20,921 nucleotides of DNA, taken from positions 1 to 20,921 of IMG/VR virus record IMGVR_UViG_3300047462_000743. One strand, written 5' to 3'. How positions within the stretch are numbered: position 1 is the first letter of the stretch; each line of letters starts with the position of its first letter. The stretch comes from a virus. Position numbers and translations under genes: made by a program. Shown here piece by piece: positions 1 to 20,921 of this stretch. The notes beneath the pieces are model-generated. The model was not told the origin of the DNA. It did not search any database and saw only the letters and a program-made list of their open reading frames with translations.

Positions 1-591
1 TCACAAATCCAGAATCACTCCTCCAATATCATGATCAGCAAAGTTCGGCCAGATCGCCGAAGGCCTGCCGAATTGCATGACGGCGCCGGCATGCTGCCAA
101 TCCTGGTCCGGGATCGGCACCGGCACCATGGGCACCACGTCGCGCCCATGGTGATAGATGTGTAGCGCAACGCCATATTGGCGGAAGATGCGTGTCAGCA
201 TATCGTCGACCGATGTGCGCGGCGGCTCGAAGGCATGCACGGCCTTGGGCGGCTTGCCGGCCACGCATAGCCGTGCTGCAAGGTAGATGGCGCCGGCGGC
301 GCCTTCGGAATGGCCGCATAGCGCGGCCGGCGCCAATTGCCCGACTGCGTCATGGATGGCGGCAAAAGCCTGCCATATGCCGCGATGCACTTTGCCGTAG
401 ATGCCGGCATCGAACACCAATGCGTCGGCATCGGCCTCGATACAGGCGAAATTATTGGTGCCCGGTATCGCGAGCACCAGGCCTTCCGCCGTATCGTTGC
501 GCACCACGCGCGCCGCGCCCTCGGGGTCGCCGATGGCCGGCACGGCGCTGTAGGCGCGCTGCGCCAGGACGGCAAAGTCGCGCGGCGTCAT
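1..591 (-). CDS. Phage-encoded class-3-type lipase/esterase
   Basis: 196 aa alpha/beta-hydrolase of the lipase class 3 type. The predicted catalytic triad is visible: Ser95 in the nucleophile elbow GHSEG (93-97), Asp151 in GRDVVPMVP, and His187 in DHDIGGV close to the C-terminus. IPGTNN (42-47) fits the oxyanion region. I chose the ATG at 591 because it overlaps the stop of the upstream lipoprotein gene as ATGA; the reading frame is open further upstream, but there it runs antisense-free over the lipoprotein gene in another frame and looks non-coding. There is no signal peptide, so export would need lysis or holin lesions. It is the last gene seen of the lysis end of the late operon, which suggests a role in membrane breakdown at lysis; a lysogenic-conversion enzyme is the alternative. 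The family assignment is strong, the role is inferred. Confidence 0.82.
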   Translation of the reverse strand: MTPRDFAVLAQRAYSAVPAIGDPEGAARVVRNDTAEGLVLAIPGTNNFACIEADADALVFDAGIYGKVHRGIWQAFAAIHDAVGQLAPAALCGHSEGAAGAIYLAARLCVAGKPPKAVHAFEPPRTSVDDMLTRIFRQYGVALHIYHHGRDVVPMVPVPIPDQDWQHAGAVMQFGRPSAIWPNFADHDIGGVILDL

Positions 592-1013
592 TTTGTAGCA
601 GGGGTGGCGACCGCCGCAGGCTGCTCCACCTGTACGGCCTGTGCCACACTCAATAGGATCTGCAGGGCCAGCAAATCGGCAGCCAGCTTGGGGTTTTGCG
701 CCTGGGCGATCGGCAGCACCACGTTGAAGGCCAGGTTTTCCAAAGCCGCCGCATCGCCGGCATTTGCCAGCGCCGCGCTTGCACACAGGCTCTCCACTTG
801 CGGCGCGGCGAGGGCCAGGTCGTGCAAGGCGCCCTGCGGCAGGCCGACGTCGGCCTGCAAACCGGCAACCGCCACTTCCAGCGGCGTACAGACCTGGGCG
901 GCGATCTGGGCAGGTGGTTTCGGCGCAGCGCCGCTTGCTGCATCGGTGTTGGCGGGTGTGGAACAGGCGGCCAGAGCCAGGCCCATCAGGGTCGCAAAGA
1001 TTTTATGTGTCAT
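588..1013 (-). CDS. Small phage lipoprotein in the lysis cassette
   Basis: 141 aa. The N-terminus is a lipoprotein signal: MTHK, a hydrophobic stretch, then lipobox LAAC with the lipidated cysteine at 17. Ser at +2 predicts sorting to the outer membrane. The mature part is Ala/Leu-rich and probably helical, with an extra amphipathic helix at about 90-128 and two more cysteines (42, 77) that could form a disulfide. The start has an excellent ribosome binding site (AAGGAG, 6 nt before ATG). It lies 3 nt after the two-TM holin-like gene and overlaps the lipase by ATGA. It is not proline-rich like a typical Rz1 spanin and there is no Rz partner, yet its position in the cassette fits an outer-membrane lysis factor. 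Function otherwise unknown. Confidence 0.8.
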   Translation of the reverse strand: MTHKIFATLMGLALAACSTPANTDAASGAAPKPPAQIAAQVCTPLEVAVAGLQADVGLPQGALHDLALAAPQVESLCASAALANAGDAAALENLAFNVVLPIAQAQNPKLAADLLALQILLSVAQAVQVEQPAAVATPATK

Positions 1014-1016
1014 GCA

Positions 1017-1220
1017 TTACTCCTTGGGAGGTTGGGCGTCGGGGAAGAGAATCTTGATTGCGGCAGACGCGATGCCGCCCAGGGCCGTGCAGCGGCCCCA
1101 ATCAAGTGCTGCGTATTTCGAGCCGGCCAGCGTCAGCACGAACGCAATGCCTTGCCAGGTGCCTGGTTCGGCGGCGCGTTCGGCGAGGTAGGCCAGTAAT
1201 TGTTCAAGCCTGTCCTGCAT
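1017..1220 (-). CDS. Two-TM holin-like small protein
   Basis: 67 aa, starting at MQDRLEQLL. An amphipathic N-terminal helix (2-15) is followed by two modestly hydrophobic segments, about 22-39 (GTWQGIAFVLTLAG) and 47-60 (TALGGIASAAIKILFP), then a short charged tail (DAQPPKE). This pattern, with the AEPGTW stretch before TM1 and FPD after TM2, resembles small holin-like proteins beside phage endolysins. The reading frame is open far upstream, but that part overlaps the endolysin gene in another frame and is compositionally meaningless, so I use the internal ATG that overlaps the end of the endolysin gene by 17 nt. Likely inner-membrane holin or lysis-timing protein. Class is inferred from size, topology and context only. 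Confidence 0.68.
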   Translation of the reverse strand: MQDRLEQLLAYLAERAAEPGTWQGIAFVLTLAGSKYAALDWGRCTALGGIASAAIKILFPDAQPPKE

Positions 1221-1674
1221 GGCTGCCCTCCAGGTCGTACTGTTGCAGCCGGTGCGCATCGATGATGGCGCACAGGGTGTCGCCGTAGTCCGGCGCGGTG
1301 GCATAACCGGCTGCAGCCAAGGCGCGCGCAAAAGCGATGCTGTCGCAAGTGGCAAAGCAGGCGGCATAGCGCGGATTGGCGCGCAGGAAACGGCCGTGGT
1401 CGGCCAGGCTGGCGGCAAAGTCCGGGTAGGCGCGAAACGCCGCCGTGATCTCGACCCAGCGGCCGGCCAGGTCTTCATGGGTCAGGAAGCTGACAGTCGG
1501 CCCGCTCCAGGCGGCGTCGGCCTTGATGCCGAACAGGTTGTTGCCCGGCGCCTTGCCGCCCCAGGCCGATTCGCAGGCCGCCTGGGCCAGCGTGACGCCC
1601 GCGGGCACGCCGGTGGCGTCACGGCAGGCGAGGGCGCCGGGCAGCAGCGCGGCAATGAAATCGGCCGGCATCAT
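1204..1674 (-). CDS. Endolysin, glucosaminidase (GH73/FlgJ-like)
   Basis: 156 aa single-domain peptidoglycan hydrolase, expected to cleave the glycan strand between N-acetylglucosamine and N-acetylmuramic acid. Visible family marks are the catalytic Glu35 in ACESAWGG, the following GNNLFGIKA block (44-52), the FRAYPDFAASLADHG block (80-94) and YATAPDYGDTL (124-134), which corresponds to the conserved YATDP-type motif. There is no signal peptide, so it depends on a holin. The ATG at 1674 (tandem ATGATG) forms an ATGA overlap with the upstream one-TM gene; longer in-frame extensions run through that gene and are rejected. It lies between two holin-like genes, a complete lysis core. Family confident; exact bond specificity unproven. 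Confidence 0.88.
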   Translation of the reverse strand: MMPADFIAALLPGALACRDATGVPAGVTLAQAACESAWGGKAPGNNLFGIKADAAWSGPTVSFLTHEDLAGRWVEITAAFRAYPDFAASLADHGRFLRANPRYAACFATCDSIAFARALAAAGYATAPDYGDTLCAIIDAHRLQQYDLEGSHAGQA

Positions 1675-1865
1675 TTGGCCCACCCATGCGCGGCGAACCA
1701 GAGATAGACCGCGCCGGCCAGGGCGGCGGAAACCAGGCCGGCCAGCGTCCATTTGCCGAACGCGGCAAATTGCTTGTCGAGCCATTCCTGTAGCGCTTCC
1801 TTGACGATTTCCTTGTCCAGGGCCGGTGCGGACTTGTCCTTGCTTGATGAGAGTTTGTCGTTCAT
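1671..1865 (-). CDS. One-TM holin-like protein
   Basis: 64 aa. A charged cytosolic N-terminal half (MNDKLSSSKDKSAP, then an amphipathic helix DKEIVKEALQEWLDKQ) leads into one transmembrane helix at about 39-60 (WTLAGLVSAALAGAVYLWFA) and ends in HGWAK. It directly precedes and overlaps the glucosaminidase by 4 nt, the usual place of a holin or antiholin. The ribosome binding site GAAAGAA is moderate. Two small membrane proteins flank the endolysin, so this could be the holin and the other the antiholin, or the reverse; sequence alone cannot decide. Confidence 0.65.
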   Translation of the reverse strand: MNDKLSSSKDKSAPALDKEIVKEALQEWLDKQFAAFGKWTLAGLVSAALAGAVYLWFAAHGWAK

Positions 1866-20495: not shown

Positions 20496-20921
20496 TCAAA
20501 CCTTCCTGCGCATCCCCAACAACAAACCCACCGCCGCCAGCACAACGATTTCCGTCAACACCAGCGCCAGCCGTGTGTGCCATTCCTGTGCCGGCGTCAC
20601 TTCGTTCAAGCTGTGGGTGGGATCATCAGGCGAAAAATATACGGCGACCGGCTCGCCAATACGGTAGGCATCGCAGCGCTTGTGGGCCATGCCGCTGCCG
20701 TGATGCGCCGTCCCGCCGGCATCGAACGCATAGTCCACCTGCAAGTGGCTCGCGCACTGCGTCTGCACGATGCGTCCCTGCACCGCCTGATAGTTTTGCG
20801 CCAGCGAGTAAGCAGTGATCGCCTGCATTGTCGAATAAAACAGCGCCGTCACGGAGAGCACGGCGAACAGCAACGCCAGCACGGCACGGACGATCGTATC
20901 GCGCACTTCGCGTGCGTGCAT
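20496..20921 (-). CDS. DUF3592-type membrane protein
   Basis: 141 aa from an ATG at the window edge; an earlier start outside the window cannot be excluded. Two transmembrane helices (about 13-33, LALLFAVLSVTALFY, and 117-136, LALVLTEIVVLAAVGLLLG) flank an extracytoplasmic beta domain. That domain has the DUF3592 pattern: A-x-x-Y-x-A-V-x-GRIV (42-52), VDYAFDAGGTAHHGSG (62-77), YRIGEPVAVYFSPDDP (86-101) and a SLNE end. Function of the family is unknown. It ends with basic residues MRRKV, so the C-terminus is probably cytosolic. Chromosomal gene, unrelated to the phage. Confidence 0.75.
   Translation of the reverse strand: MHAREVRDTIVRAVLALLFAVLSVTALFYSTMQAITAYSLAQNYQAVQGRIVQTQCASHLQVDYAFDAGGTAHHGSGMAHKRCDAYRIGEPVAVYFSPDDPTHSLNEVTPAQEWHTRLALVLTEIVVLAAVGLLLGMRRKV

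Follow-up and report, generated by a model that had tools for sequence, protein, structure and literature searches.

An outer-membrane lipoprotein in the spanin position of phage lysis cassettes, followed by either of two unrelated predicted lipid hydrolases

Introduction

How might a phage lysis cassette open the outer membrane when it carries a lipoprotein and a lipase where a spanin pair would be looked for? The question is raised by one end of an IMG/VR virus record, analysed here as a whole (20,921 bp; hereafter the window), in which five genes lie together on the minus strand. It bears on a wider problem. Kongari et al. searched 677 phages and saw no spanins in 91 of them; they noted 31 genomes with a lipoprotein but no linked i-spanin, and they asked whether another route through the outer membrane exists (PMC6139136).

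The cassette in the window

The five genes occupy positions 1-1865 and are listed in the order of transcription.

1671-1865, minus strand: protein of 64 aa with one TM segment, which opens the cassette and by its position resembles a holin or antiholin
1204-1674, minus strand: glucosaminidase endolysin (Pfam PF01832, 4.4e-28; PHROG endolysin, 2.9e-50)
1017-1220, minus strand: holin-like small membrane protein (67 aa), weakly hydrophobic in two segments and located where a holin would be expected
588-1013, minus strand: lipoprotein (141 aa) with an L-A-A-C17 lipobox and Ser18 (Ser+2)
1-591, minus strand: class-3 lipase/esterase (196 aa) with a Lipase_3 match, the gene that closes the cassette and lies at the very end of the record

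This order, with the lipoprotein preceding the lipase, agrees with the first-pass annotation of the sequence. The junctions do not: overlaps or gaps of at most 3 nt had been described, and the actual overlaps are 4 nt (one-TM protein/endolysin), 17 nt (endolysin/holin) and 4 nt (lipoprotein/lipase), the one further junction being a 3-nt gap. The one-TM protein has no convincing family match in Pfam or PHROGs, and a protein resembling it precedes the endolysin in locus L024. The 67-residue protein had been called holin-like with two TM segments; its position and size bear this out, but the segments are weak by hydropathy (best 19-residue mean of 1.27), so that the label 'holin' rests on position and size. 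A signal peptide was looked for in the endolysin and none was seen. The lipoprotein has the reported LAAC motif and a serine rather than an aspartate at +2, in line with outer-membrane sorting. Both in the window and in its relatives, the endolysin and holin-like genes are co-directional and contiguous with the lipoprotein-lipase module. The record begins exactly at the stop codon of the lipase; its other end also stops at a gene boundary, that of a DUF3592 membrane-type protein (20499-20921).

The lipase and its relatives

The window lipase matches Pfam Lipase_3 above the curated cut-off (2.7e-6; 27.8 bits against 22) and the esterase/lipase family phrog_21992 in PHROGs (2e-43), and its alignment profile finds class 3 lipases with solved structures (2e-21). 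The predicted structure is very confident (pLDDT of 97.8). The protein is assigned by homology to the Lipase_3 (class 3) family and is a predicted lipid-ester hydrolase. The triad Ser95-Asp151-His187 (numbered with the ATG at 591 as residue 1) had been identified correctly and is invariant in 88 of 88 lipase loci. No signal peptide was seen when one was looked for in the window protein.

A search of IMG/VR found 95 stretches with related lipases, 80 of which were kept; genes in the IMG/VR loci were called with a composition-based caller written for this analysis, and the counts given below include related loci at full weight. Relatives are also present in Shewanella phage QDWS and Burkholderia phage BgManors32, in both of which a lipoprotein gene lies immediately upstream, and a genome scan adds prophage-like loci in Paraburkholderia and in metagenome bins. 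More distant matches in the Pseudomonas group and Photorhabdus (about 28-34% identity) have lipoprotein-like neighbours too. Relatives found through the tail gene of the window carry no comparable cassette. Together with the window, 11 of 82 other IMG/VR loci (L009, L017, L022, L025, L028, L029, L031, L037, L041, L061 and L089) break off right after the stop codon of the lipase, an ending that would be expected if proviruses were cut at their last viral gene and this gene were the lipase. In 30 loci the neighbourhood of the lipase includes an integrase-type gene, which mostly lies downstream of it and is encoded on the opposite strand.

A lipoprotein family coupled to the lipase

The first-pass annotation had proposed that related prophages be searched for lipoprotein-lipase pairs and that the structures of both proteins be predicted. 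The lipase is closely preceded by a member of one lipoprotein family in 78 of 88 phage-type loci (window included), directly so in 72; the direct neighbours overlap by 4 nt in 49 of these 72 and by 1 nt in 16. Among 59 aligned members Cys17, Cys42 and Cys77 are the only invariant columns, and exactly two further cysteines are present in 77 of 78 members. The conservation of these two residues suggests a periplasmic disulfide. The structure model, of moderate confidence (pLDDT of 74), consists of four helices. A tblastn search with the lipoproteins against cultured phages returned nothing beyond BgManors32.

The endolysin beside the module is of one of four kinds (phage lysozyme, chitinase-type, glucosaminidase or GH108; the chitinase-type label is taken from the BgManors32 annotation) and the holin belongs to one of three groups, and this range of partners indicates that the module is transferred whole from one lysis cassette to another.

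The lipoprotein occupies the place of Rz/Rz1

The occurrence of spanins was assessed with a detector for i-spanin/o-spanin pairs in all reading frames, which recovered six of six controls (lambda, P2, KL3, Bas80, L017 and L022) and which i-spanins of unusual topology would escape. The IMG/VR loci were scanned with 4-6 kb of flanking sequence, and QDWS and BgManors32 as complete genomes. No Rz/Rz1 pair was detected anywhere in the 20.9 kb of the window, upholding the earlier reading of the cassette, nor in the complete genomes of the two cultured phages, nor within the flanks of the 78 lipase cassettes that have the family lipoprotein; detector matches in L046 and L056 were set aside on inspection as chance.

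Only two lipase loci have real Rz/Rz1 genes, and both are without the family lipoprotein: in L017 (phrog_1026, 7.8e-8; phrog_1275, 1.2e-16) and L022 (phrog_8821, 6e-11; phrog_1267, 3e-8) a true pair precedes the lipase, and in L022 the Rz1 reading frame extends into the lipase start. When these loci are pooled with the DUF1353 loci described below, Rz/Rz1 is found in 0 of 132 cassettes with the lipoprotein versus 4 of 32 without it (Fisher p=0.0012, which is indicative, as the loci are related and kinship is ignored). An i-spanin with an N-terminal TM segment and a periplasmic domain adjoins the lipoprotein neither in the window, QDWS or BgManors32 nor in the 132 cassettes. The lipoprotein thus takes the place of Rz/Rz1 in the cassette: in L017, L022, L224 and E. 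coli phage Bas80 Rz/Rz1 stands where the lipoprotein stands elsewhere, which identifies this position as the spanin slot. The first-pass annotation had staked its interpretation on two points, the absence of a standard Rz/Rz1 pair beside the cassette and the persistence of the lipoprotein-lipase pair in related cassettes, and both hold in the relatives that carry the lipoprotein.

DUF1353 in the enzyme slot

In four lipoprotein records (L007, L008, L010 and L011) the lipase is missing, and a DUF1353 gene follows one or two genes downstream of the lipoprotein; in a fifth (L117) the enzyme slot is taken by a divergent Lipase_3 gene. DUF1353 was found in none of 37 lipase-bearing records. A search of IMG/VR starting from DUF1353 gave 80 loci, 77 of them readable. 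The lipoprotein is directly upstream in 46 of the 77 and within three genes in 54, known endolysin or holin genes are upstream in 69, and the lipase is present in none, so that the two enzymes are never found in one locus. Two DUF1353 loci, L195 and L224 (the latter assignment being backed by PHROGs matches), contain Rz/Rz1-like pairs, and both are without the family lipoprotein. In Bas80 the endolysin and holin genes come first, followed by Rz, within which Rz1 is embedded, and last by DUF1353. An endolysin-type gene is also adjacent or close to DUF1353 in Pseudomonas phages AH02 and phiPMW and in Fusobacterium phage Fnu1, and is absent there in jumbo phage GAP32 and Salmonella phage Arash. 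Neither the lipase nor DUF1353 was found among the lysis-region proteins of BPP-1, which is spanin-less in Kongari et al. (PMC6139136).

The DUF1353 protein TtaP is a proven phospholipase A2 with catalytic residues His70, Asp71 and Asp85, and its deletion is without a secretion phenotype (PMC11525133). All 81 phage DUF1353 members retain the equivalents of this His-Asp/Asp set at an identical spacing of 15 residues; an export signal was looked for in these proteins and none was seen. The PHROGs label 'tail assembly chaperone' looks wrong for DUF1353, being supported neither by the lysis context nor by the phospholipase-A2 residues. The Bas80 gene itself (L119, 4001-4342; phrog_1158) lies directly after Rz/Rz1 in the lysis cassette.

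The lipoprotein and Rz/Rz1 are therefore each found ahead of Lipase_3 and ahead of DUF1353, which makes up all four combinations. The two slots are exchanged separately, which indicates that the lipoprotein has the place of the spanin and that the lipid hydrolase is a further module. The presence of two unrelated lipid hydrolases in one terminal position behind one lipoprotein family is a case of convergence, and the simplest common denominator of Lipase_3 and DUF1353 would be lipid hydrolysis during lysis. The first-pass description of a lipoprotein and lipase 'instead of spanins' is accordingly right for the lipoprotein, which replaces Rz/Rz1, and not for the lipase, which forms a terminal module of its own and is found beside Rz/Rz1 as well. 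Its suggestion that the lipase is guided by the lipoprotein does not hold as a specific pairing, since members of one lipoprotein family stand before two enzymes unrelated to each other; nor was specific co-evolution found, the distance correlation between lipase and lipoprotein (r=0.31) being no higher than that between lipase and holin (r=0.39).

Proposed role in lysis and alternative explanations

The explanation that we favour, and to which we give about an even chance, is that the glucosaminidase and the lipase, released by the holin, and the lipoprotein, standing in place of spanin genes, jointly break the outer membrane. The holin would release two cytoplasmic enzymes, the glucosaminidase to act on the cell wall and the lipase on lipids, presumably the phospholipids of the envelope. 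The wall would be degraded first, and the lipoprotein, acting at the outer membrane, would then contribute to its rupture together with phospholipid hydrolysis. The lack of an export signal on both the Lipase_3 and the DUF1353 proteins is what would be expected of enzymes released by a holin, and the exchange of the enzyme between two unrelated kinds behind the lipoprotein points to an enzymatic step in the breakage of the outer membrane. More tentatively, and as a possibility to which we lean less, a lone and probably disulfide-bonded lipoprotein with a holin-released Lipase_3 or DUF1353 enzyme could perform the last step of lysis without membrane-fusing spanins as a widespread route in Gram-negative hosts. 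Both enzymes also accompany complete Rz/Rz1 pairs, and the hydrolases may thus be accessory; the observations are compatible with a hydrolase that is essential for outer-membrane rupture as well as with one that only helps.

The latter possibility is central to the alternative that survives best, although we regard it as rather unlikely: the lipoprotein would be an o-spanin or a self-sufficient disruptor of the outer membrane, acting alone or with an unrecognised membrane partner, and the hydrolase would be an accessory that, during or after lysis, digests membrane debris trapping or inactivating the progeny, for example, or speeds release. The exchange of lipoprotein and Rz/Rz1 in one place (L017, L022 and L224) and the presence of hydrolases beside true Rz/Rz1 pairs, as in Bas80, are both in keeping with this. 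Against it, no i-spanin-type gene is paired with the lipoprotein in the 132 cassettes, small holin-like genes apart. A self-sufficient disruptor of the u-spanin type is likewise disfavoured, as no 19-residue segment reaches a mean hydropathy of at least 2.0 in 78 lipoproteins (median of 1.55, borderline), leaving no clear C-terminal TM segment, and about a quarter of the lipoproteins are short forms with 16-47 residues after the last cysteine.

Lysogenic conversion, raised as an alternative in the first-pass annotation, is the chief functional alternative that lies outside lysis, and is improbable. The lipase would be a moron that alters the host surface, either through expression from the prophage or after release, and is merely parked beside the lysis genes. 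The nearby integrase-type genes place it where conversion genes are usually found, and the loci that end at its stop codon do so as trimmed proviruses would, but in most loci the lipase is co-oriented with the lysis genes and coupled to them by start and stop codons. It is also kept with all four kinds of endolysin, is replaced in place by another lipid hydrolase and has no visible signal peptide, and the alternative is weakened to that extent.

Type VI secretion lipases have lipoprotein immunity proteins, and the adjacent, coupled genes in the cassettes, like the lipoprotein-like neighbours of the distant lipases, could suggest an inhibitor that shields the envelope from the lipase until lysis; this is very improbable, given that one lipoprotein family precedes two unrelated enzymes, that L017 and L022 have the lipase but not this lipoprotein, and that the inner membrane already holds back a cytoplasmic enzyme until the holin opens.

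Comparison with known systems

Rz/Rz1 of lambda and LysB/LysC of P2 have an outer-membrane lipoprotein right after the holin and endolysin genes, as does the window. They differ from it in that an i-spanin and an overlap-encoded gene are absent in the window, where the lipoprotein is larger and helical, has two conserved cysteines and is followed by a lipid hydrolase. The lysis cassette of T1 likewise has one lipoprotein of about this size, the unimolecular spanin gp11, but the window family has no clear C-terminal TM segment and its short forms have no such region at all.

Lipases in lysis cassettes have been proposed already. One analogue is LysB of mycobacteriophage Ms6, a serine esterase that provides a third enzymatic step; its target is the mycobacterial envelope (mycolyl-arabinogalactan; PMC5707550), whereas Lipase_3 is paired here with a Gram-negative lipoprotein. 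A GDSL lipase, with esterase activity measured in a fusion protein, was proposed in the lysis cassette of a Pseudomonas syringae pv. actinidiae phage (PMC12173070); unlike the window lipase, it has a carbohydrate-binding domain and lies upstream of the holin and endolysin, and no lipoprotein module was reported. The putative lytic cassette of Wolbachia phage WO, in which a patatin-family lipid hydrolase and a holin-like gene were proposed to act in lysis (PMC9203015), is a proposal only and differs from the window in enzyme family and in having neither endolysin nor lipoprotein. TtaP has the kind of activity proposed here, and its phage relatives occupy the enzyme slot behind the same lipoprotein; its family is unrelated to Lipase_3, works through a His/Asp catalytic dyad and is without a known role in lysis. 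The typhoid toxin islet that encodes TtaP also encodes a muramidase (PMC11525133), and this phospholipase A2 with a muramidase at its side may have its origin in a phage lysis module.

In the open-licence literature we found no description of the lipoprotein family, of its pairing with Lipase_3 or DUF1353 or of the two-slot exchange. The lipoprotein-hydrolase module is a concrete, conserved candidate for the route that Kongari et al. asked about, and the natural swaps in both slots make the question of a spanin-free route testable. The enzymes that it brings to light may also be active on the envelope of Gram-negative bacteria.

Additional genes in the cassettes

Several further genes recur in these loci. 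An HNH-type endonuclease gene is part of the cassette in 34 of the lipase loci; in L003, L004, L007 and many relatives its place is between the endolysin and holin genes. A small DUF6527-like ORF sometimes separates the lipoprotein gene from that of the lipase or DUF1353 (L040, L045, L080, L170, L193 and L235), overlapping its neighbours by 4 nt in several loci. In L083 (5444-6007) holin-like and lipoprotein sequences share one continuous frame of 187 aa, reflecting either a fusion or an internal start. A second small lipoprotein-like gene is often located between the holin and the main lipoprotein (L080-L082, L084, L159, L167, L174 and L183, cluster 29; L043 and L046, cluster 40), so that some cassettes would carry two outer-membrane lipoproteins.
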